From: Solicoccozyma terricola
Lineage: Eukaryota; Basidiomycota; Tremellomycetes; Filobasidiales; Piskurozymaceae
NCBI GenBank assembly: GCA_001600875.1
Contig: BCLD01000022.1
Coordinates: 192,364-256,363 of the forward strand
Length of the DNA: 64,000 nucleotides
Reading direction: 5' to 3'
Part shown: in pieces, positions 43,609 to 57,085 of the stretch
Position numbering within the stretch: the first letter of the stretch is position 1
Layout: the number at the start of each line of letters is the position of its first letter
Translations under genes and position numbers: made by a program
The notes under the pieces: model-generated
Databases searched by the model: none
Told to the model about the DNA's origin: nothing
What the model saw: only the letters and a program-made list of their open reading frames with translations

Positions 43609-43969
43609 GTTGTAATCATGTCATCAGATTAGTGATACGTAACTATCGTGGTGGTCCAGGTCCTTGGTTCCCCCTCTCCTCTCGTAACCCTCTACAACAC
43701 GTCAGGACCTCCGTCCGCCACCGCCACCCACGTCTGTGCCCTTTCAGTCCCATCCAGTCTGTAGGCAAGTAATGTCGTCAGCCAGTCTTAGCCGGAACTT
43801 CTTGATGCAGACGCTGTAATCAATGCATTTAACCCACCTGAAAGCATCGATAGCAGGAGATTTTTCCGATATTGCCCGAGTTTATGAGGATCGATCAGAA
43901 TCATACATCAGTTCCTCCACGATTCAAGCTCCTTTGTACCGGATCTGCAAGGTAGCAGCAGGCAAGGTA
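43609..43969. other. Intergenic region after SSADH
   Basis: 3' flank of the dehydrogenase. No gene or repeat recognised before the cassette region begins near 43970. Confidence 0.5.
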
Positions 43970-44230
43970 GGTGGACATGCCTTTGGGAATGAGTAGACAG
44001 GTTCAATACAACAGTCCTCTCTCTTATCATGCCTTGACTGGAAAATGTTTTAATCGAGGGGTTGATAAATGATGAAACCATCAATGGACTGGGGTTGTGC
44101 ACTTTGGTTCCCAAGCAAGGGGCATCTGAAAGGAATGGGCATGAATGTAAAACCACATGTGTATGGCGGTGGTATGCTTTCATTCACACACCAGGAGAAA
44201 CCTGAATGGAAGGGATAATGAAGCTTCGTG
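43970..44230 (+). repeat. Cassette 5' repeat, copy A
   Basis: About 250 bp that recur almost in order at 55985-56235. Shared landmarks are GACATGCCTTTGGGA, CTCTCTTATCA, GGGGCATCTGAAAGGAAT, ACATGTGTATGG(C/T)GGTGGTATG, TCATTCACA and CAGGAGAAAC(C/A)TGAATGGA. A shorter, more decayed version is at 45226-45365. It precedes the short ORF at 44401. Both an LTR-like element and a duplicated promoter would fit; I see no terminal repeats or integrase. Confidence 0.7.
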
Positions 44231-44267
44231 GCAAAAAACAGAGAGGGAACAGGTGAGTACGGAGGGG

Positions 44268-44273
44268 TATAAA
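44268..44273 (+). promoter_or_regulatory. TATA box of short ORF A
   Basis: TATAAA within GGGGTATAAAGGGTGAGAAA, which is repeated exactly at 45840-45859 before ORF B. It lies 133 bp upstream of ATG 44401. The conservation between the two copies supports use as a core promoter. Confidence 0.5.
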
Positions 44274-44400
44274 GGGTGAGAAAGAGGTGGTGTAAGGATC
44301 AGGGACCTTTCTCCGATTATCGCATCCCACCATCATCCATCTGAATCCAACATCTGGATCCACCCCACACACCTCATCAATCTTCAGCAATCCACCAGAA

Positions 44401-44595
44401 ATGCAGTTAGGGGGGGGCTATGCTCATTTTTTCTTTGGTCCTGAACGGCCTCCAGCGGAACCGAGCGAGGACTCCCAATCGATCGCCGACACATCGAACG
44501 CGGGGGAATCAACCCGGGGGGGGGGATCGGTTGCCGAGGAAACCACGGCCAACGACGGAGCCTCCACGGCGGAACCTAGCACCAGCACCAAATAG
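44401..44595 (+). CDS. Short Ser/Thr/Glu-rich protein, cassette copy A
   Basis: 64 residues, unrecognised. The first residues are MQLGGGYAHFFFGPERPP, followed by a low-complexity acidic/Ser/Thr tail ending TAEPSTSTK. The stop TAG lies in the context ATAGCAGGGA, matching ORF B (CGTAGCAGGGA), so both proteins end at the same homologous point although their N-termini differ. Two homopolymer G tracts lie inside the frame (8 G at 44410-44417, 10 G at 44516-44525). Flanked by the conserved 5' block and TATA box upstream and by the duplicated 3' block downstream. No signal peptide or known domain. Could be a real fast-evolving gene, a decayed copy or an untranslated transcript. Confidence 0.4.
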   Translation: MQLGGGYAHFFFGPERPPAEPSEDSQSIADTSNAGESTRGGGSVAEETTANDGASTAEPSTSTK

Positions 44596-44840
44596 CAGGG
44601 ATCCGTAGAATAATCGGTTCGATGGTATCCGTGACGAAGTAGTCCAATGAGAGCATAGCCAGGTAAAGGGATTGCAAAGGACGGAGGGCGACATTATTTA
44701 ATAGTTGAATGATAATCAGAATATCGGTGAAGAGCTCCAAAACCACCCAACCCTGTAAGATACCATTCATACTCGACACTGCTCTCCAAAGAAAAAGGTG
44801 ATTATGTCCCTCGGCGTACTCTCCGATTCGAGCACATCGA
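44596..44840 (+). repeat. Cassette 3' repeat, copy A
   Basis: About 240 bp duplicated at 46173-46440. Shared pieces include GCAGGGA, GAATCGGT, GTAGCCAG/CATAGCCAG, GGAGGGCGA, AGCTCCAAAA, CTCGACACTGCT, TGATTATGTCCCTC/TGATCATGTCCCTC and GAGCACATCGAG. The order is conserved, with small indels throughout. Confidence 0.7.
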
Positions 44841-44849
44841 GGTCGTACC

Positions 44850-45000
44850 CTCTCAGCCACCCACCCCCCACCCTCCATCAACCGACGTGAGACTGCTCCC
44901 TCAGACTTAAGATTCCACCTCAACTGCTTATCATGTTGTATGATACATACCCTCCCTATCAGGCCCGAGTTGATTGTGGATGGGTACGGATGCGGGATGG
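44850..45000 (-). pseudogene. Decayed 3' fragment of GH105-like hydrolase, copy A
   Basis: Translated on the minus strand, this stretch reads LIGRVCIIQHDKQLRWNLKS then EGAVSRRLMEGG. It aligns with the last exon of the gene at 47219-48792 (GILGDVCDIHDERLRRNLSP then EGQSFIVLMEAS). The upstream GH105 exons are absent here, and the frame runs on through unrelated sequence. It lies convergent to ORF A, exactly as the complete GH105 gene lies convergent to ORF C. Confidence 0.6.
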
Positions 45001-45225
45001 GCTGTAAGTATCGACACCTCATTGACCTTGCATCAACCCAGTCTCCCGAGGCTAGACATTGCGTGACTCTGTTTCTTGACAGACTCACCCACACCTCACC
45101 GACAGGTAATATGAGGTGTTCTGGTCCACCTGATCTATCAAGCTTGTGATGATACTCCGGCCTAAGAAATCAGAAACGAAACGGACAAGTGGACTTTGAG
45201 CCCGAGCCTAGAATAGGCGCAGACA

Positions 45226-45365
45226 TGCCTTTGAGAATTGCACTAACAGGTATACGACAAGAGGTCAGACACGCCAGGCGCATCCGAAAGGAGTCGGCAT
45301 ACGTGTAAGACCTCATCCGTACGGTACGCTTTCAATTACACATGAGGAGAAACTGAATGGAGGTG
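45226..45365 (+). repeat. Decayed cassette 5' repeat before the 45512 ORF
   Basis: A degraded version of the 43970 block: AGACATGCCTTTGAGAATTG, GAAAGGAGTCGGCATACGTG and ACATGAGGAGAAACTGAATGGA are in the same order but with more substitutions and gaps. Confidence 0.5.
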
Positions 45366-45511
45366 ACCTTGCATGTTTGCGAGGGGGAATATAGGGGGGT
45401 CAGAGAGGGGTATGAAAACGGGAGATCAGTTGGGATTGTGTATCTCTTTCCAGACATCCTACTTGCAATCCACAATTCATACCAGAACCCATTTGAACGC
45501 AACAACTTACC

Positions 45512-45670
45512 ATGGAGCATGAAAGAGACCTCCCGAACGGTGGAAGCAGGAAGCCACAGAGCGAGGATCTCCCCGCGGATGATGACAATGTTGTAACACG
45601 ATATAGGTATAAAACTATCCTTCTCTATCTCAGTGCCATGCACTCCATGATGCAGGAAAGAGATGATTAG
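45512..45670 (+). CDS. Short charged protein, cassette copy B'
   Basis: 52 residues starting MEHERDLPNGGSRK and ending MHSMMQERDD. Unrecognised. The leader matches cassette D: CCAGACATCCTACTTGCAATCCAC here against CCAGACACCGACTTGCAATCCAC at 56311-56333. This places the ATG as the homologous start. The stop codon runs directly into a 13-base G tract (45670-45682), so the original frame may once have continued. Possibly a truncated copy. Confidence 0.3.
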   Translation: MEHERDLPNGGSRKPQSEDLPADDDNVVTRYRYKTILLYLSAMHSMMQERDD

Positions 45671-45711
45671 GGGGGGGGGGGGCCCGAGGAGTTGAGCGTT
45701 TCCTTCACAGT

Positions 45712-45717
45712 CACGTG
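45712..45717. promoter_or_regulatory. CACGTG in a palindrome upstream of ORF B
   Basis: The perfect 14-base palindrome CAGTCACGTGACTG, within the slightly longer imperfect CACAGTCACGTGACTGTG, lies 270 bp upstream of ORF B and is not seen before ORF A. Confidence 0.35.
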
Positions 45718-45754
45718 ACTGTGTTTCCGCCACCAGTGGACTGTGACAATCCAC

Positions 45755-45989
45755 CCTCCCTCTCACACCAGGAGAAACATGAATGGAAGGGATGATGAAG
45801 CTTCGCGGGAAACGGGAGAGGCAACAGGTAAATAGGGTGGGGTATAAAGGGTGAGAAACAGGTGGTGTAAGGATTAGGGGTTTTCTGTTCATTGAAACCC
45901 ATCTGAATCCATTTACATCCAACATCCGCATCAACCCCACACCCATCAACAATCTTTTGTGAATCCACCAGAACCGCCACTTGCCCAAG
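45755..45989 (+). repeat. Cassette promoter block, copy B, with TATA box
   Basis: Repeats 44190-44400: CACACCAGGAGAAAC, TGAATGGAAGGGAT, ATGATGAAGCTTCG, the TATA box at 45843-45848, GTGGTGTAAGGAT, CATCTGAATCCA, CATCAACCCCACAC and AATCCACCAGAA. The last element ends just before the start codon in copy A. Confidence 0.75.
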
Positions 45990-46172
45990 ATGGCTGAGAT
46001 TAAACAATTTGGTCGATATATGGCGGACGGCACGCCTATAGGGGCTCACAAGGCTAAACTACCTTCAACGCCAGAGGAAGCGCAGGAGGACCAGTCTCTG
46101 GCCGAAACGACGGAGGAATCAACCATGGCCGAATCGACTACCGGGTCCGGGGGATCCATTTCCACCACGTAG
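45990..46172 (+). CDS. Short Ser/Thr/Glu-rich protein, cassette copy B
   Basis: 60 residues: MAEIKQFGRYMADGTPIGAH, then a low-complexity tail rich in Glu, Thr and Ser ending GSGGSISTT. The tail resembles that of ORF A (AEETTANDGAS against AETTEESTMAES), and both stop at the same duplicated point. The start is the ATG in CCAAGATGGCTGAG, close to the Kozak-like context of cassettes C and D (TTGCCATGRCTGATGA). TATA box 147 bp upstream. No domain recognised. Confidence 0.45.
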   Translation: MAEIKQFGRYMADGTPIGAHKAKLPSTPEEAQEDQSLAETTEESTMAESTTGSGGSISTT

Positions 46173-46440
46173 CAGGGAATCCTCAGGAGAATCGGTCAGG
46201 TGGTATTGATGACGAGATAGAAAATGGAGAACGTAGCCAGCCAAAGGGGAATGCAAAGTAAGGAGGGCGAGATCATTCCATAGTTACATGATATCAGATA
46301 TGGGTGAAGATATGGGTGAAGATGTGGTTGAACAGCTCCAAAATCACCCTATCCTGTGAGCGACCACTCACGCTCGACACTGCTTTCATAAAAACCGTGA
46401 TCATGTCCCTCAGCGTACTTTCTGATCCGAGCACATCGAG
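46173..46440 (+). repeat. Cassette 3' repeat, copy B
   Basis: Duplicate of 44596-44840. It contains a local tandem of GATATGGGTGAA (46297-46321) absent from copy A. Confidence 0.7.
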
Positions 46441-46531
46441 TTCATAAAGTCCGGGAGATAATCCAGAGGATTTGGAATCGATAACACAACTCCATCACAC
46501 CCCCTCACTCATTCAATTATAACACCTTGCC

Positions 46532-47083
46532 ATGACTGATGAGGAATATGAAGAACGCTTGGTGCAGCTGACGTCCCAAATTGAAGTGATCTCTCCAAGC
46601 TCAAGAGCAAGGTCCTTGGCGGACCTACTCATCCCCCAAAGACGACGACGACGACGGTTGCGACTACTACAAACTCACCCTACGACAACGAGTGGAGCAG
46701 GCGGAACGGACCCTTGCGAATCTCCATCTAATTCCCCAAGACCCCGCAGAACAGAAAACTCTATCGGAGGAGATTATGAAGTCAATGACCGAAGACCCGG
46801 CAAAGCATGAAGATCATCTGTTTGCGATTTCGAAGGCATCGTTCAACGTAAGAGATAGCTCTGGGCTTTCAAGCCTTCCAGGTGCAAGGCAAGTCATCAT
46901 CAAGAAGGTCCTGGGGCAAAGGAAGACGAGCACAGTTGTCTCACAGACGTAGACGACTGGATTTTGTTCCACGATGATGGATCGTCTAAGCCAACCTGTT
47001 CTTCAGTTCCATCGAAGATCGACGGTGATACCTTCGACGTCATATCCAAGGGATCCAGCCTCAACACAAGCACCGAGGGGTAA
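46532..47083 (+). CDS. Acidic coiled-coil protein, cassette copy C, spliced or frameshifted
   Basis: Starts MTDEEYEERL at 46532 in the context TTGCCATG shared with cassette D. Coding signal then moves to another frame: DDDDDGCDYYKLTLRQRV, EQAERTLANLHLIPQDP and EEIMKSMTEDPAKHED, about 46640-46847. It then returns to the first frame: EDEHSCLTDVDDWILFHDDG, ending SSLNTSTEG, stop 47081-47083. The return fits an intron at 46848-46888 (GTAAGA donor, 41 nt). The first switch has a possible short intron at 46562-46607, with a GCTGAC branch but an unusual GAG acceptor; an indel in the GAC/ACG repeat is the alternative. The result is about 150 residues, acidic, with a central coiled coil. Function unknown. 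Ends 135 bp from the convergent GH105 gene. Confidence 0.45.
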
Positions 47084-47218
47084 GCATTACCCAGGGTCTT
47101 AGCGGGGGATGCTGCAACGCGTTGATGGGGATGAATACCAGGGAAGCACTGTAGTAGCTGGGAATGTAGTTCTTGATCCGTCTTACTCCACCCATCTACC
47201 ACTAAATCCTTCCCAACA

Positions 47219-48792
47219 TTATATCTTGCCTTCCCAGTCCCTCATGCTAGCCTCCATCAATACGATGAAAGACTGACCTTCGGGGCTAAGATTCCGCCTC
47301 AATCGTTCGTCATGTATGTCACACACATCCCCGAGAATGCCACTTGGTGAAATCCGATTATAAATAGCAGCACGAGCATGGTGAGCCCATGTTAGGTGGG
47401 TAGTGGAAAGTCCAAGGTATGCAAGTCGGCTGTGTGTATAGCTTGTCAGTTATGCCCTGCCTCAGAAGATCAGTGTGACCTACTATGCACAGTACACGAG
47501 CATGGCCGTCCCACAGGATTCTTCAAATGAATCAGGCTCGTCGATGTAATTCAGGATCATACCGGACGGTGCCTGTGGTGGTGCAAGGATGTTAGTAAAA
47601 CCCACCATTGTGGAAGGCAGAAACATACCGCTCGTGTAACAGCTGCTGTCACTATCTCCCCCGACCAATCATGAAGGTCATTGATCTCCTTCTGCATTTC
47701 ACTGACCCATGGTGATCTCATGATTGTAGCAAGGACCCTCAGCATCCCCGCTGCTGCCCAAGCGTTACCTATAGGAGGATGAAGTTTCAACGAGGCTGCC
47801 AAATCCAACACCCCAACAGCTCACTCGTTGCCCAGCAGAATGGATCACTCTTCCCACTTCCATCGCCTAATATGATATGTTTCCAAAGACCTGTATCTGG
47901 GTTCCGGAAATGAGTGCGCTGAAGACCGCATTGTTTGTAGGACCATGATAGAAGATCACGGTTGGATGTGAGGAGTGCATAGTATGCCTGTATGATTAAA
48001 GGAAATTAGATGAGAGCGCGGGCGCCGTCATGTATGCGAATCATAACTCACTACAGAAGGCGGTGCCATATAGACAAAGTCAGCCCATAGACTAAGCTCT
48101 CGAACTCGATGAGATAGAGCCCCATCATCCGTCTGTGCGTGATGAAGATCAAAGTTTGCACCCAAGAGCACTCGCTGAGAGCTCACTTTTGCAACATCAT
48201 TCAACAGAAAGTCGATCTGCTTCTCCACGGCATCCACCCATCCGACAACCGGTGCATCCTCCCCGGCTACCTCCTTCAACGGATCTGATGGAATCTCCCC
48301 TGACAAATGAGCTAACAAACAGCACGTTATGAGTGATGCAGGATCTGACGTCGAGTCGTCACGCAACAAGATTTTTCCAAGCCCAAGTGGGAATGACTTT
48401 ACTGTTGGACGATGAGATAATGCCCAGTGAGCTTGTGTGAAGACTGCAGCCGGTACATATGGAGATGGAGGTGATGGCGAGGAGAGGAGAGGTGCGGAGA
48501 AGGAAGGTGAGAATGGGGTAAGGGTTGGAGTTTCGAGTTCAAGGATTGCTTGTGCGTAGGTGCCTGACGGGATGCGGAAGGTGGTTAGATGCATGCAGAC
48601 AGTGCCACACATAAATCCACATACTACGTTCCCATCTAGATTCAGTGGAGACAACGTAGATATCGTCAGATTGGGAGCTGTGCTTGCCGGAACACCGAAA
48701 ATCATGTCTCACCCTTGCAGACTCGTCCTACCCGCCACTTCCACTACCTTGCGAAGCAGATCTCCATCCATCCGAGGTGGAATAAACGACAT
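47219..48792 (-). CDS. GH105-like unsaturated glucuronyl/rhamnogalacturonyl hydrolase
   Basis: Six-hairpin glycosidase (GH88/GH105 fold); such enzymes remove the unsaturated uronic acid from oligosaccharides left by polysaccharide lyases, for example in rhamnogalacturonan. Start 48792 (MSFIPPRMDGDLLRKVVEVA), then SLQGWERSMWIY after an intron. Next come AILELETPTLTPFSP, LCADFVYMAPP-like sequence (read as LWADFVYMAPPS near 48070), TGLWKHIILGD, GNAWAAAGMLRVLATIMRS and GTAMLVY. The last exon runs YLGLSTTHLTWAHHARAAIY, SPSGILGDVCDIHDERLRR, EGQSFIVLMEASMRDWEG, stop 47219-47221. No clear signal peptide, so probably intracellular. The junction between WERSMWIY and GTYAQAIL does not fit a canonical GT/AG splice, so the gene model there is uncertain. 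The 3' end is copied in cassettes A and D. Confidence 0.75.
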
Positions 48793-49669
48793 TAGTGGAT
48801 CTATCCGAGCTATGATGGTCGATGGATTGATGTTATTCCATGTTGTGAGTATCGTTTAACGACATATGACAAGATCGGGGGATCGCCGAAAACGGTGACT
48901 AACGCCGGGTGGCAACTTGTCGCGCTTTTTGGTGATATCCACGAACGACGACCATTCAGAAAGTGTACAAGTTCCTCTCATATCTAGGGTTCTACAAGGT
49001 GAGAGTTGAGGGATGAGAGGGCGATGAGAGATGCTCGATTCTCGATTCTGAGATCGGGCTTAATTGGGTTTCGTCGTTGAAGAAGACGGACAAAAAACAT
49101 GGTCGGCGCATGAAGGAGCGGTAATCCATATGAATCGCAGGTGGTACTGTATCCTGATATGATCCAACAGCGTTTGCCAGCCTATTCCTCTGAACGAGAC
49201 ATGAAAAAATATGAGGATTCAAGCAGTCACAATATCGTCTAAGAACTGCAGCCGGCCCTACACAGTCATACCGCCTAAGTACCTTTCCCCCGCCCTTGCA
49301 ATGCCTAAATTTCTAATTTCAGCATCTAAATACGAGCACACACCCTTCCAGTGCGAATATCGCAGCATATCACCCCCTTTTGCCCCATGCTGGGGGATGT
49401 TCTACTAGGCTACGTATGACATCAGTCGACCCCTATCATCCATCCGCGGTGCAATTATTTGGCCACGTGGGTTACTCCACCGATCAATGACTCGAGATTT
49501 GGGGTTTCGCAAAGAAAATCAGTGTAGAGCCAGCGAGCATATCAAGTACATTCACTTACAATTACTGTCTTTTACAATCGGATACCATACGTACCATCTG
49601 TGAGTATCATATGGATGACCACAATCTCACAGCCTAACCTTTCATCATATCTTCCAGCAACGCCAAAAG
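48793..49669. other. Divergent promoter region, GH105 and histidine phosphatase
   Basis: No gene recognised. Contains CACGTGGG at 49464-49471, a Pho4-type core, and short C/T-rich stretches. Open frames are short and lack codon structure. Confidence 0.5.
49464..49469. promoter_or_regulatory. CACGTG(GG), Pho4-like site before the phosphatase gene
   Basis: CACGTGGG is the preferred Pho4 site in ascomycete yeasts (CACGTGGG/T). It lies 201 bp upstream of the PMU1-like start. The link to phosphate control is inference. Confidence 0.35.
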
Positions 49670-51556
49670 ATGTCTTACCAACCTGACGATATCCCAACCA
49701 TCTCATCCACTCCTTCTCTAACATCCGGTACCCCTTCATACGGTGCTACCACACTCACTACACCCACCACCATTTCTCCATCTGAAGACGAATTCGCCGA
49801 ACAATGGAATACAAACAAGTTATCAACTGCTCGTGCTTCTGCTGAAGGCGTAGATGATGCGTTCCTTGCGTATGAGATGCCGGAGGTGCCTGCAGGGTAT
49901 GTTGTGGGTACAGCTGCGGTATTGGGAGGCGAGAATGGGGAGTATGGGAATGAAGGTGAAGGAAGAGATAGTAGTGGAGATAAATATCTGTACGAGGTGA
50001 GAGGTCTTTGGAAGTCTTACGGAAGATGAATGGTGTGGTACAGCGGCTGATGTTGGGTTGTTTGCGCTGGGTCTGGTGTCGTGGGGTTTGGGATAGGTTG
50101 TAAGGGGATTCTTCAAGCAGAATGATGAGACATTTCCAAGGATGAGTCCAGAGGAAATGGTGAGTTGAATTGGGGTGATGTGTTTTGGAGTTTCAACGTG
50201 AAGCGTGGTCAGGGATGGAAGAACGGAATGATATACCAGAAATGTCATTGCCCATCGTTACGACGTCTTTGCGTAGAAAGAGGGGGGGTTACTCAGCTTG
50301 CTTTCCCGAGAAGTAATCCGCTGAACGCTTCAACCTTCTGGTTTCGATCCAGCTTTCAAATTCGTTCGGATTGATTGATAATTCTCCCGAACGATGGGAC
50401 AACTTCAAATCTGACATTCAAAGTGAGTCTTCGGTCTTGGAAAATCTTGCTTTGAACTTTGGGGAAGCTTACTCGGGATATAATTCGTGAATTGCGTAGA
50501 ATTAAGGGAATCAGCGCCTGAGAATGTTCAGTACAAGGTGCTGTTCTGCGGTGAGGAGTCTCTCAAGATCATTTATGAGCCGACCACTCATTACCCCTCC
50601 AATCGAACAGGTCGCCATGGAGAAGGCCACCATAATCTTCACTCTGCTAGATACGATGCTCTTGTACGTCCAATTTCTCAAATCATTTTCGGTCGTCAAT
50701 CGACAAACTGAATGGATGAGGGTATCTCTCTATATAGGAATGGGAATTCTTTTGGGCTAAAAAGAATGGAGATTCGAGAGGGACTTGGGGTCCAGATGCT
50801 GAATTGACTGAGATAGGAGAGGGTCAAGCTCTGGTGAGAAAGTCGGTGGTACGATGGTTTGATTGATGACTGACATTGATTAATGTCGACGCAGGCCGTT
50901 CAACGAGGATGGAAGGCAAATCTCGCGTCCGGAGCACCTAAGCCAGAGACCTTCTGGCTCTCACCACTTACTCGGACGGCCAACACCATGAGGCTTAGTT
51001 TTGGAGATCTGCTTGATGGAGAGAACCCGCTGTTCGTTGAAGATTTAAGGGAGATCTATGGGGTTCATACTTGTGATATGCGGAGATCGAAGGTGAGCCC
51101 GGGGATTTCCGGGAAGATTTGCGGTATAGTTGCTGAATGAGACTCGTGGATCTGGCCTCAGACGTACCTTGCTGAACGGTTCCCAAATTATAAGTTTGAG
51201 CCGGGATTCTCGGAGGAGGATCCGTGGTGGCATCCTGGTGAGTACTGAAGTTGGATGTATGTCCCGTAACAGTGCTGACATTATCGCCACCGCCTCGCAG
51301 AGGAACGAGAGCAGGAGGTCGAGCGACGAGGACGACTTCGGAGGTTGGCTGACAAGCTGTTCGATGAGGATGACAAGACCTGTGGGTGTGACTGCGGATG
51401 AAAAATAGAGGTGGCGCTGACGACATGTCTACAGATATCTCCTTGACCTCCCACGCGTGTGCTCTCCGATCGCTGATGGCAATTCTTGACCACGATATTG
51501 TGAAGCTCGAGACCGGTGAGATGATTCCTATCGTCGTCAAAGCCACAAAGCAATAG
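49670..51556 (+). CDS. Histidine-phosphatase superfamily protein, PMU1-like
   Basis: Phosphoglycerate-mutase-like phosphatase of the fungal PMU1 group. The N-terminal exon (MSYQPDDIPTISS, start 49670) is low-complexity. Conserved pieces follow on separate exons: GFFKQNDETFPRMSPEEM, SFGLIDNSPERWDNF, NVQYKVLFCG joined by splicing to RHGEGHHNLHSARYD (the RHG motif with the phospho-acceptor His), WGPDAELTEIGEGQAL, and FWLSPLTRTANTMRLSF, which holds the second-half Arg. ISLTSHACALRSLMAILDH supplies the second catalytic His, in SH rather than GH. It ends IPIVVKATKQ, stop 51554-51556. Natural substrate is unknown; yeast relatives act on phosphate esters. It converges on BUD22 with only 71 bp between stops. 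Confidence 0.85.
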
Positions 51557-51627
51557 AAGGAATGGCAACGCTGGACGTGCCATTATAGAGAGATGTAAAT
51601 ATATGCATACAGGATGTTCCTTGCCCC

Positions 51628-52384
51628 TCAATCGAAAACGATTTTCTTCGCCTTTGGTGCACTAGCCATAGCCATCTCCTTTTCTTTCCGAAGACGCGCT
51701 GCTTCCCATGAGGGGTGTATGGCTTTAGGTGTTTCCGCGGGTCCAGGTGGTTTCGGGGAAGCGATCGACGTCGTTGTCGCGCCTGTCCCTGTCGCCGCCG
51801 CCGCGGCCGACTTCTTCTCCCACGGTTTGCTAGCTGGAGCGCGTTTCCCCCATCCGCTGTCCCCGACGACGACCGCACCTTTCCCAACAGGACGACCCGT
51901 TTGAGCACCCATAAACTTGGATGCCATTTCTTGACGTTTCTCTTCCTCTTGTTGTTTCTTGACGTGATTTGCATTTTGTCCGTATTTCTTCTCCCAGATA
52001 CTGTATGTGTGTGTGTGTGTGTGGATCGGGGGGATTGAGCTTGTGGAGGGACTGTACAATACACAACACGACGGGACTGTAGAACTCACGCTTTCCTCTC
52101 CCTTTGACCTCTTCTATTCTTACGTATACTTTCCCCTGCACCACGCTTCGCATCTCGTCTATCATCCTCATCCGGATCCGAAAACCCGTCGTCTGAACGA
52201 TCACCTAGTGTGTATCCTGCCGACAGTGATGGTAAGAAAAGCGATGATTTGATGGGTTTGGAGGTGGGTAAAGACGTGGTACCGCGTTTTGCTGGGAGAG
52301 TCGGTTTGATTGGTTTTGATTTAGATTGTCGGATTGTCGATTCCTCATCATCACTCTCGTCTTCGTCCTCATCGTCTTCACTAC

Positions 52385-52416
<32 letters not shown>

Positions 52417-53668
52417 ATTGAACCACTCTCCCAACCAGCAGCATCAACCGCCAACTCCTCTCTCATTTCCTTCTCCCTAATCTCATCCTCATATTCTCTC
52501 CTCAAACCTTGTCTCTCAACATTCATCCCTCCCTTCTTCCCTTTCAATCCTTCATTCTTCATCCCATCAACCATCCCACCAACAACCTTTGTATTCAATT
52601 TCTTCTTCAATTTCGCACTTTCTTCTCCAATCACCCATCCTATAACACCTTTAACAACCTCACCGACACCTTTTGCACTGAACAATCTATTCTCTAATTT
52701 AATTTGAACCTCTCCATTCGATGATTCGCCTTTAGGGTCTTGTGATTGCGTTGGTGTGGATGGGAAAAGAGAAGGGATGGTAGAAGTGTGGGTTCGAAGA
52801 AGAGGGTGTTTTCGGAGTTTGAGGGTGAGTAGGGATGAAGAGATGGGTTGGAGGTTGATGTGCTGGTTTGTTTTTCGAGAGAAGGGGAGCGGGGTTGTTC
52901 AGAGGGTATATTTAGGGAAGGAGGAACACTCGATGAAATCAAGACACCCACCTTGATAGCTTCTAATTGAATTTCCAAATCTTTTAAATCCTGTTGTGCG
53001 TCAATAGGTTTCGTTCTATCAAAATAAAGTAAAACCATCAAAGTACATTCAGCAAATGACCAAGGTGGGATAACGCCGAATGGAGAGAAGGAGATGACTC
53101 TGGAGAAAATAAAAAAAAGCCGATAGAGAACTGCAACTCACCTTAGGTATTTGACTTTTTTGATTAATCGTTGAGTTTCTGTTATTTTTGCTTTTTTGAG
53201 GATTGTATGTAATGATTTCAATGCTTGTGGCTGTGAAAAGCAGAATAAGAAAAATCGTTTTTCGGCGTTAAACCCCAATCCTCAAACTCCGTGGATTCGA
53301 TGTATGTCCCAAAATAAAAACCCCGAAGAAGAAAAGCAAGAAAAGCTTACAATCCGTTGTTTTATCATCTCCAAATCCACCACATCACCCTTCCCTTCAT
53401 CTTCAACATTCAATACCAATTCTTCTCCATCATCCAATTTCCTTCTCTTTCTCATCCCATCCATTTCATCTCCACCTTCCATCGTACTTTTCCCCTCAAT
53501 ATCTTCCACATCAGCCGCTTGAGCAGCCAACACAGCAGCAGCAGCGGCAATAGCAGCTTCTTTAGCGAGTTGTCTCTGTTTTCCTGTTCTTTTTCTTTTT
53601 GTTGTTGTTGGAGGTGATGATGTGATATCTGGGATATCTGTGGGTGGTGTGGGGATTGGAGATGACAT
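51628..53668 (-). CDS. BUD22: BUD22-family ribosome biogenesis protein
   Basis: Nucleolar factor of the 90S pre-ribosome (BUD22/SRFBP1 family), acting in 18S rRNA processing. Start 53668 (MSSPIPTPPTDIPD) leads into a basic TKRKRTGKQRQLAKEA segment. The conserved helical block is split over small exons: QALKSLHTILKKAKITETQ, RLIKKVKYLR, then FDRTKPIDAQQDLKDLEIQL. A middle exon encodes GVGEVVKGVIGWVIGEESAK and a long acidic run of Asp from an (ATC)n repeat (52388-52414). The C-terminal BUD22 signature is RKNRRGQRERKA then WEKKYGQNANHVKK and IHPSWEAARLRKEKE, finishing APKAKKIVFD, stop 51628-51630. Five or more exons. Two CACGTG elements lie 107 and 130 bp upstream of the start. Confidence 0.88.
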
Positions 53669-53774
53669 GGTGGATGGGTGTGGGTGGGGGTGGGTGAGAT
53701 ACGTTGGGATACTGTGTTGGGAAATAGTATTATATGGTGTAGGTTGAGAATGATTGAAATGGATGGATGGATGA

Positions 53775-53803
53775 CACGTGATAGTGGGCAGGTGGATCAC
53801 GTG
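53775..53803. promoter_or_regulatory. Paired CACGTG elements upstream of BUD22
   Basis: Two CACGTG cores (53775-53780 and 53798-53803), 17 bp apart, 107 and 130 bp upstream of the BUD22 start. The spacing matches the single elements upstream of UTP20, SEN1 and NUP84. Confidence 0.4.
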
Positions 53804-53820
53804 TTGTTTACAATTACAAC

Positions 53821-53868
53821 AGGGAAGGAGGGAGGGAAGGAGGGAAGGAGGGAAGGGAGGGAGGGAGA
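53821..53868. repeat. GGGA/GGAA purine microsatellite
   Basis: Tandem GGGAGGGAAGGA-type units, all purine on the plus strand. Such tracts can form triplex DNA and exclude nucleosomes. Confidence 0.8.
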
Positions 53869-54273
53869 GTCGCATCAACCACGGAACAGTCTCAAATCAT
53901 CATCCATCGCATCATACATCGCATCCATCGCATTCATCGCATCCATCGTTCAAAAGCATTCAAAAGCATCCTCAGGTAGGACACAAACATCATCACCATC
54001 GCTACAAAGAACCCTACCAACAAACAACAAAACCTCCACTTCCATCCCATCAAAATTCGCACCCGGATTCCGGGGGACAAGTCGTGTGACGGTCCCCGTT
54101 CTTTTCAAAAAAAAACAAGGTTTGGGTGTTGGTGAAATAGATGACAACGGGTTTGTTAAGTCGAGGGTATAGGGAATAAAAATCGTATCGAACAAAGGCT
54201 CCTTCGTTTGAAAAATCAGAAAACATTTTGGACAGTTGGATTTTCTCACCACCACCAACAACAACAAGAAAAA

Positions 54274-55700
54274 ATGGATATTGATACATCTACCACTACC
54301 ACATTCCCATCTTCCGCTCATCCACCAACTCCATCCATCGATATGATAACGGATATTATCGAAACACCGAGTAAGATGAAACGTAAAAGGAATGGAATGG
54401 ATGATATTGGTGGTGGTGGTGGTGGTGGTGGTGGTGACGATGATGAGAATGTTCGTGATGATGATGGAATGAATGGATTGGTTGAGTATTCGAATGGAGG
54501 AGAGAATGGGAATGGACGTACAGTTGTCGTTGATGATGATGAAGAACGAGTCGTTAAAGTATGTGTTCCGTTCATTTCTTTGTCTCTTTTTTTTTCCTTT
54601 CATTTGAATCGTCGTCTAACCTAATCCCCTAAACCCCCACCCCTCACCCCACACCACTCATAAACATTTCTTCGTCTTCTTCTTCTTCTTTTTCTTTTCG
54701 AAAACAAACCAGGTCTCACGTACTCAACCACCAACACCCACATTCCCACTCCCTCTTTCAACAAAATCATCATTCTACGGTCCCGGTCCCGGTTCTGGTC
54801 CTGGTTCTGGAAATGGAAATGGATCAGGATCAGGATCAGGATTTAACTCTACAACTCCTATTTCTATTTTCCAATCTCCGATTCATAGTCCGTTTGTTAC
54901 GCCTGGTGGTGGGAATGGAAGTGGGACTGGGTTTATGGATGGGATGAATGGGATGAATGGATTAGGGAATGGGAATGGGAACGGACATGGACATGGACAT
55001 GGGTTAAATGGAATAAATGGGTCTGGAATTGGGAATGGTATTGCTCGATTTGAAGATAGTGGAATGATGATGATGGTTGAAAATGGAACCGATAGTGATG
55101 CGTTTGTTGTTCGAGATGGAGATGGAAATGGAAATGGAAATGAGATGGATGTTGATATGTCTTCAGGGAATATTGGAGTTCAAAGAGGTAGAGAGCTTCC
55201 TGGTATGTAACACTAAATTCAATTTTAGAAAGTCCTCGAACGCTGATGGACACCCCTCTACCCCCCCCCCCCCCCCCACCCCACGCACAACGACAGATTA
55301 CTTCTCTCATCCAATATCAACATACAAATCCGAATCTCCACTCGCCGTACAACCATTCACTACAACTCTTCGTCCTATCGAACATAAAGTCGGATTATTA
55401 CAACCTGCTACGCCGATGGAAGGTGATGGGAGAGGGTTTGAGTCTCCGGGGTTGGAGAAAGAAGGGTTGAGAGCCGTTCAGGAAGCTAGGAATGTTCATG
55501 GGTGGGTTCTTCGTGGACGGGTACTGAGGCGGAGGGGTTTTGGAAGCGCTGACGTTTGTTTTCTTTTCCACGGCACGCTCAGTGCTCATTGTTCGACCAT
55601 TCCGAAATTGGTTCTATCTGAACATCCGGATCCGAAGACGGGAGAGAGGAGTATGTGGTCGATGTGTCAGAGTTGTGGGAGTTGTGAGAGGGTCGGATGA
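54274..55700 (+). CDS. Gly/Asn-rich disordered protein with C-terminal Cys motif
   Basis: Unrecognised. Starts MDIDTSTTTTFPSSAHPPTP; exon 1 has a basic KMKRKRNG patch and a Gly run from a (GGT)n repeat. Splicing at 54560/54712 continues with SRTQPPTPTFPLPL and long GNGNGSGSG, NGNGHGHGHG tracts. A second intron (55202-55294) contains an 18-base C run. A third (55504-55580, GTGGGT donor, GCTGAC branch, CAG acceptor) joins VQEARNVHG to AHCSTIPKLVLSEHPDPKTG, ERSMWSMCQSCGSCERVG, stop 55698-55700. The last 40 residues, with one Cys-His start and a CxxCxxC end, look conserved and possibly metal-binding, unlike the rest. The basic patch and disorder would suit a nuclear regulator, but no family is claimed. 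Confidence 0.6.
55261..55278. repeat. 18-base C homopolymer in an intron
   Basis: Lies in the polypyrimidine side of the second intron of the Gly/Asn-rich gene, shortly before the acceptor, where length changes could alter splicing. Confidence 0.8.
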
Positions 55701-55984
55701 TGCGTTCACAGGATTTAGTTTCAAAGGGAAATAAAAAACGGAACACTTTCCAAGCGTGGGTCGCGGGTTGCGGTTACTGTATTCAACTTCGGATCCTTTA
55801 TTCTGTATCCGCCAAAAAGGTCTTCGAGGAACATATTGTACGCATATAAACAAATTTGTTTCTGGGTATTTGGGTCGCCGGGGGTCTCTTTCCAATTCGA
55901 GAAAATTTCCGTCGTCACGTTCTGTAGATTCAAGCGCTCCTTCCAAACATCGTGACAGGTCTCTCACCAAATAGACAAGGCAGA
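55701..55984. other. 3' flank of the Gly/Asn-rich gene
   Basis: No gene recognised before the second cassette begins. Confidence 0.5.
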
Positions 55985-56235
55985 CTGACATGCCTTTGGG
56001 ATTATATATGGTGCAAGACAGACGGCGTCTCTCTTATCAGGCCTCTATTGTTAAGTGTTTCAATCAAGCTGGTATCCAATGCAAATCCATCGATTGGCTG
56101 GGATATGAACTATGATTCCCAAGCCAGGGGCATCTGAAAGGAATTGACATATATGTAAAACAACATGTGTATGGTGGTGGTATGCTCTCATTCACATGCC
56201 AGGAGAAACATGAATGGATGTGATGATGCTTCTTT
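55985..56235 (+). repeat. Cassette 5' repeat, copy D
   Basis: Matches 43970-44230 in order, including GACATGCCTTTGGGA, CTCTCTTATCAGGCC, GGGGCATCTGAAAGGAAT, ACATGTGTATGGTGGTGGTA, and CAGGAGAAACATGAATGGAT. Twelve kb separate the two copies. Confidence 0.75.
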
Positions 56236-56386
56236 TGGAGGGGAAAAGAGGGAGGGGCAGGTCGGGAGCGGTGTAAAACCCAGGAGATAATAGAGAATTG
56301 GGTGACTTTTGCCAGACACCGACTTGCAATCCACGACCACTCCATCAGACACCAGAAGAAGAACAAATCAAGACACAACAATTGCC

Positions 56387-56809
56387 ATGGCTGATGAAGA
56401 CACCCCCACAACAGGTGAAGAAAACCGATCAGGGAGTGAGGAGCCCTCCAACACTGATTCTGGCGATCACTCAAATGGGCAGTCGGTGGATGTCGGCTTA
56501 GAGGAGATTATCTCTGGGCATTCGTCAGTGTTATCGAATTGGGATGAGGGTCCTACCGAAGGTCGCTCCAAAGCTATCAAAGATGTCTCGAAGAAGTTAG
56601 CTGCTGTTGGGGCGCATGCTGCAGCTCAGAGGATGGTCAGTGAGGAAAGCCTGGGAGTGACAGTAAGGGGGAAGATGCCACCTTCGCCCCCGAACCTACT
56701 TCGGGGTCTGGGAGCGCAACTGGGGTCCAAAGTGGCGAGAGTTCAAGCGAAGTGGACTCCACGGCAACAAAGTGATGGGACAGACATTGGGAAAGATTAT
56801 AGGTGCTGA
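56387..56809 (+). CDS. Acidic Ser-rich protein, cassette copy D
   Basis: 140 residues in a single open frame. Start ATG 56387 in TTGCCATGGCTGATGAAGA, matching cassette C (TTGCCATGACTGATGAGGA). The N-terminal 35 residues are acidic and Ser/Thr-rich (MADEDTPTTGEENRSGSEEP). The middle is helical and mixed-charge (EGRSKAIKDVSKKLAAVGAH), and the C-terminus is basic (KVARVQAKWTPRQQ, ending DIGKDYRC). This is the longest uninterrupted member of the family. No known domain, signal peptide or membrane helix. It ends about 60 bp from a convergent GH105 3' fragment. Confidence 0.5.
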   Translation: MADEDTPTTGEENRSGSEEPSNTDSGDHSNGQSVDVGLEEIISGHSSVLSNWDEGPTEGRSKAIKDVSKKLAAVGAHAAAQRMVSEESLGVTVRGKMPPSPPNLLRGLGAQLGSKVARVQAKWTPRQQSDGTDIGKDYRC

Positions 56810-56829
56810 ATTTGTAGCTCTTGATCTGC

Positions 56830-57085
56830 ATCACTCCACCTATCTACCACTCATCCCCGCTTGACTTTTTGATCTTGTCTTCCCAGTCTGTAAGGACACC
56901 ACCTTCCCACGTCTCCACACACGTTGGAGCCTCGTTCAAACTCTTGCCTAATATCGCAAAACCTCCCTGTCCCCAACCAAAACCATAAGCCTTCCTGTCT
57001 CTCATCGAGACTAAAGTCCTTGCTGTCTCCTGCTACGCCCACAGTCTCTTACCAATATCAAAGTCTTCTCTGCCCGATTGGCTTG
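56830..57085 (-). pseudogene. 3' fragment of GH105-like hydrolase, copy D
   Basis: On the minus strand the sequence reads GWGQGGFAILGKSLNEAP then LTDWEDKIKKSSGDEW with a stop at about 56862-56864. It corresponds to EGQSFIVLMEASMRDWEGKI at the end of the intact GH105 gene. The 3' UTR pieces also match: CTACCACTMATCC, GTGGAGTGATGC/GTGGAGTAAGAC, GATCAAGARCTACA. The upstream exons of the hydrolase are missing, so this is a remnant carried with the cassette. Confidence 0.6.

Follow-up and report, generated by a model that had tools for sequence, protein, structure and literature searches.

Tandem clusters of lineage-restricted (orphan) genes evolve by birth and death, and solo long terminal repeats (LTRs) of fungal retrotransposons are known; both provide the background for the locus described here. 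In the present study, we analyze five short open reading frames (ORFs), designated A, B′, B, C and D, in a stretch of 64,000 nucleotides of Solicoccozyma terricola DNA (contig BCLD01000022.1, here C22, positions 192364–256363; this whole stretch is called the window below). One of them, C, lies beside a gene for an unsaturated rhamnogalacturonyl hydrolase of family GH105 (PF07470). We will argue that the ORFs and their flanks probably constitute a local tandem cluster of an orphan gene, which was duplicated together with its convergent GH105 neighbour and has decayed since. No description of this cluster was found by title or by the start of the abstract among the literature matches listed. 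As for the enzyme, GH105 is present in all strains studied in PMC7147457.

Shared sequence at a single locus

The initial annotation placed five ORF starts at 44401 (A), 45512 (B′), 45990 (B), 46532 (C) and 56387 (D), and all of them are found there. It also proposed that these copies share flanking sequence, and a comparison of the window with itself yields seven matching stretches between them, which establishes that the repeats are real. The 5′ block of A (43960–44267; this and the following features are on the forward strand unless noted otherwise) matches D at 77% (43960–44220 with 55973–56228, E value 2e-45) and contains an inner stretch of 129 nt at 85%; from 44184 onward it is shared with B. 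Another match, at 74%, connects A with B′ (44112–44210 with 45270–45361). The 5′ block similarities of A to D and to B′ were not reached by any of 100 shuffles. The promoter-like region and leader of B (45761–45989) are 80% identical to A over 45761–45973 (44184–44400 in A), and the two copies also have part of the ORF and the 3′ flank in common, the latter at 71% (44586–44847 in A, 46163–46446 in B). The 5′ block and leader of B′ (45224–45511, the left end being taken from the alignment) match the corresponding region of D (55973–56386) at 71%, over 45270–45473 and 56120–56334, while a short stretch of B (45763–45797) matches D (56192–56228) at 89%. Finally, C and D share some 75 nt at 76% (47165–47239 with 56813–56888), consisting of 3′ flank of C and the last 21 nt of the GH105 gene, inside its last exon; the score of the flank part was reached by none of 300 shuffles.

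The similarities of A to D and to B overlap at 44184–44220 only, which suggests that A may be a mosaic, D-like upstream and B-like downstream. The 3′ flank of B ceases to resemble that of A at 86 nt upstream of the ORF C start. The view that the copies share pieces of a 5′ block, a leader and a 3′ flank holds for the 5′ block in A, B, B′ and D; copy C lacks this block, and its leader resembles that of D weakly (4 of 300 shuffles reach the score).

Within the 5′ blocks, the motif CAGGAGAAACNTGAATGGA is found at 44192–44210 in A, 45769–45787 in B and 56200–56218 in D, with a variant in B′ from 45344. When the genome was searched for it with up to two mismatches, eight matches were obtained, the exact ones being those in A, B and D only, compared to two matches for a control. 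A TATA-like box, read from the sequence and the alignment, begins 67–76 nt after the motif start and 101–147 nt before the ATG (counted by hand). It reads TATAAA in A (44268–44273) and B (45843–45848), TATGAA in B′ (45411–45416) and TGTAAA in D (56272–56277). The 5′ blocks are promoter-like in these respects, and we infer that they may function as working promoters.

All five copies are located within 13 kb, at a position internal to the contig (391,122 bases). The genome that was searched comprises 23.89 Mb in 33 contigs, and the counts of genome matches given here are lower bounds. These searches gave no match to the shared sequence of the copies outside this locus, and protein searches with ORF B, ORF C and P0121, a metagenome protein related to ORF C (see below), gave matches in the window only. 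What we find is thus several related copies at one locus, and since the searches detected the shared sequence there only, the cluster is local and not a dispersed cassette as originally suggested.

Among the shared blocks, the only part for which the searches gave dispersed copies is a solo-LTR-like repeat inside B′ (45589–45744), where it cuts ORF B′; copy B′ is also truncated. It matches 27 pieces at 23 or more other genomic places and has TG...CA-type ends. Twelve other copies were aligned and inspected by eye: an exact 5-bp flanking duplication is seen in seven, four of five bases agree in one, and none is readable in four. The ends and short target duplications typical of solo LTRs are therefore present in other copies, whereas the window copy is uncertain, as it ends at 45732 or, provided that the target duplication is the second GACAA (at 45745), at 45744. 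The possibility that the flanks are a known LTR or miniature inverted-repeat transposable element thus applies to this insert and not to the shared blocks.

The other genes in the window include UTP20, a SEN1-type helicase, a COG2-like protein and an aldehyde dehydrogenase. Close to the window start, X residues in an ORF translation (226–783) reveal a run of N. Between C and D, there is a pair of inverted repeats (52384–52443 and 54408–54467) of 60 nt that are 70% complementary and consist partly of trinucleotide repeats. Downstream of D, 57112–57246 matches contig C21 at 155930–156039 (76%) and contig C3 at 316684–316744 (82%), and is perhaps another dispersed repeat.

The GH105 gene and the relic beside A

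The GH105 gene occupies 47219–48792 on the reverse strand, convergent to C, and can be read end to end, in agreement with the annotation of an intact gene at this place. Our best model has 385 aa in 8 exons, including a micro-exon of 8 nt (48628–48635) that is needed to keep the conserved WE residues. The PF07470 profile scores 52.8 bits (cut-off 26.6), a value obtained on an earlier model of 440 aa; this model was abandoned when the alignment with relatives showed missed introns, and models with a first intron of 30 or 35 nt were likewise replaced. The revised protein is 44–46% identical to four relatives nearly end to end (residues 8–381 align with P0001 at 46%), and its WADFVYM motif, which may contain the catalytic aspartate, aligns with them. 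An alternative model of 399 aa fits nearly as well (286 vs 291 bits). Of 7,996 candidate proteins that were scored, 273 gave a match; among the 120 relatives listed, the best is a metagenome protein (45% identity) and the best named ones are from Naganishia (38–43%). Among solved structures, the best real relative is 3k11 (E 2e-4), while matches to designed beta-trefoil structures look spurious and were discarded. A six-frame search of the genome with PF07470 gave four exon matches, on contigs C5 and C8, and did not detect the gene in the window; with the window protein as query, only C8 was matched outside the window (43%).

We now turn to the fragments of the GH105 last exon that had been proposed beside A and D. 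Next to A, a relic of 110 nt on the reverse strand (44843–44952) reaches a local alignment score of 65, compared to 48 for the best of 300 shuffles, and tblastn aligns it at 51% over 33 aa (E 0.004). The fragment beside D, on the other hand, had to be rejected: the match is about 17 nt long, 4 of 300 shuffles reach its score, and the profile gives no match. Past 56889 on the D side there is no GH105 likeness (249 of 300 shuffles reach the score), and for the whole gene the score is reached by 31 of 100. One of the 120 relatives, P0063, does give a tblastn match at D with E 0.001, which is uncorrected for the number of queries and points to a different exon. The notion of a duplicating unit that dragged the 3′ end of the hydrolase gene along therefore finds support in copy A alone.

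Coding signal and divergence of the small ORFs

ORF A (44401–44595) encodes 64 aa and ORF B (45990–46172) 60 aa, while of ORF B′ only the 5′ part is present before the insert (45512–45588). ORF D is an open frame of 140 aa (56387–56809), and a Ser/Thr-rich end similar to those of A and B is found there in another frame, with a stop at 56773–56775. A codon-usage score was trained on 4,325 codons from nine window segments; the training genes themselves score 0.21 ± 0.10 and intergenic DNA −0.11 to −0.17. In their own forward frames, three ORFs score like the training genes, namely B with 0.17, C with 0.16 in its middle and D with 0.25 in its N-terminal part; their other two forward frames are negative (−0.17 and −0.25 in B). 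ORF A, which contains long G runs, is marginal, with 0.07 compared to 0.08 in an antisense frame. Each kept copy probably encodes a short, hydrophilic, disordered protein.

ORFs A and B are the only clearly homologous pair, none of 300 nucleotide shuffles and 1 of 500 protein shuffles reaching their score. The codon comparison covers 32 aligned codons of 64 and 60, that is, about half of each ORF, in a segment chosen by protein likeness, which biases the nonsynonymous divergence (dN) downwards. With the NG86 method, dN is 0.41 and the synonymous divergence (dS) 0.93, and the third codon position is the least conserved (21, 23 and 16 of 32 identical at positions 1, 2 and 3). As had been noted from the sequence, the products differ more than the flanks do: 60 of the 96 aligned codon bases are identical, compared to 71–80% in the flanks. 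The two flanks have a divergence (0.24 and 0.36, Jukes–Cantor) that is smaller than dN as well as dS, which means that the ORF changes faster than its surroundings. This could be due to constraint on the flanks, to misalignment or to selection. The suggestion of a rapidly evolving family is thus borne out as far as the ORF divergence is concerned, but A and B, the sole alignable pair, show no sign of positive selection, for which a dN/dS above 1 had been expected.

ORF C (46532–47083) extends over several frames, comprising the start at 46532, an open frame at 46590–46952 and an end frame to 47083. The last two match P0121, the one match among 5 candidates, which is a JGI metagenome protein of 130 aa from a 2,351-bp contig. 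In two frames of the window, the identity is 90% over residues 1–67 and 95% over residues 65–129. Because P0121 itself runs in one continuous frame where the window switches frame, near 46883–46892, copy C looks frameshifted. This may mean that the gene in the window has truly shifted frame, or else that one of the two assemblies contains an error. The start of the ORF is in a further frame, with no convincing intron to connect it to the rest. The predicted structure of P0121 has helices at 2–9 and 18–55 and a disordered tail, at low confidence (mean predicted local distance difference test score 59.5). The Pfam and protein-collection searches covered C and D; neither has a Pfam family above the cut-off, and for D no relative was found among 35 candidates.

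Origin of the cluster and its relation to known systems

In the scenario that we consider the probable one, the ancestral unit would have consisted of a GH105 gene and a small gene oriented towards its 3′ end. This pair would have been duplicated locally, and the copies would then have decayed and recombined. The GH105 partner of copy A would have been reduced to about 110 nt, B′ would have lost its 3′ half and gained the LTR-like insert, the 3′ flank of B would have become joined to C, C would have been frameshifted, and D may be disrupted. A promoter that is better kept than the protein is expected where co-regulated expression outweighs the precise sequence, or where the constraint on the proteins is loose. 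Transcription and translation of the copies, the order of these events and any function are what we infer from the sequence. The scenario does not account for the 5′ block being kept between A and D while the sequence downstream of it differs.

Several results weigh against this scenario. Beyond A and B, the ORFs are not demonstrably homologous as proteins, and the assignment of all five to one family rests on the shared flanks. Of 500 protein shuffles, 55 reach the score for A/D, 64 for B′/D, 87 for B′/C, 97 for A/B′, 230 for B/B′, 237 for B/C, 305 for B/D, 317 for C/D and 478 for A/C. At the nucleotide level, the numbers of 300 shuffles are 0 for B/D, 7 for B′/D, 12 for C/D, 33 for C/B, 170 for C/A and 202 for A/D. 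The 3′ flank of A shows no relationship to that of C, 154 of 300 shuffles scoring at least as high. The GH105 profile search did not register the relic beside A, which thus rests on its likeness to the window's own gene, and the frame comparison of C rests on one metagenome protein, compared at the protein level. For the frame changes in C and D there are candidate introns, none of them convincing, and the sense frames of A and B′ do not score above antisense ones. ORF D, moreover, has one weak genome match, on contig C28 (E 0.021), to an open Ser-rich stretch that was set aside as a probable match of composition from reading the sequence.

Some of these results would follow if the blocks were non-coding debris, either leftovers of a duplicated promoter or untranslated region or a conserved non-coding RNA gene, with ORFs that are not translated. 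The frame changes in C and D without a good intron, the antisense scores, the truncation of B′, and the G runs and marginal codon score of A fit this explanation, which we nevertheless regard as doubtful. It is countered by the codon scores that B, C and D reach in their forward frames, by the open frame of 130 aa in P0121 with its 90–95% identity to C, and by the third codon positions being the least conserved between A and B; Rfam gave no match at gathering cut-offs, which says little. A diversifying family under positive selection, such as an arms race in which the promoters are conserved and the products change fast, would instead account for C and D flanks that align while their ORFs hardly do, for the 77% 5′ block of A and D without shared ORFs, and for the A/B codon bases (60 of 96) with a dN above the flank divergence. 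The dN below dS, the 90–95% identity of C and P0121 and the confinement to a single locus point the other way, and we find such a family unlikely.

The similarity of A and D, which stops before the TATA box, followed by ORFs that do not align, can also be read differently. The 5′ block would then be a promoter cassette joined to unrelated gene bodies, not a part of one diverged family, and the locus would be a nursery for new coding sequence. This is quite unlikely in our judgment; if true, it would illustrate one route by which new genes gain expression. Least probable by far is a mobile or transposon-derived unit carrying the GH105 3′ end, as had been envisaged for the cassette. Several part-sharing copies within 13 kb and an LTR-like repeat in the cluster may seem to speak for it, but the repeat is a separate insert inside B′, no copy was found elsewhere in the 23.9 Mb, and the four copy regions contain no inverted repeats of 14 nt or longer, terminal ones included, on which grounds this candidate was rejected.

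As it stands, then, the cluster mainly exemplifies local duplication and decay. It is a small, well-delimited fungal orphan cluster, whose upstream copies have persisted longer than the similarity of the coding parts, and the relic of an enzyme gene records the duplication.

Among the systems with which the cluster can be compared, the highly divergent effectors encoded by aphid bicycle genes resemble it in that some gene features are kept while the proteins diverge (PMC9168663); this likeness may serve as a lead. The insert in B′ resembles the solo LTRs of fungal retrotransposons in its TG...CA-type ends and in the 5-bp duplications that flank 7 of the 12 others aligned; it differs in that the flanks of the window copy match only if its end is set at 45744. 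The gene at 47219–48792 matches the GH105 family nearly end to end, and here the enzyme gene lies next to the small ORFs and forms no part of their protein. With tandem clusters of orphan genes, finally, the locus has in common the local copies, the lack of a Pfam family above its cut-off in C and D, the detection of no more than one database relative and several broken copies, while it differs from them in its 5′ block, which is conserved better than most of the coding parts, and in the relic of the neighbouring enzyme gene that one copy retains.

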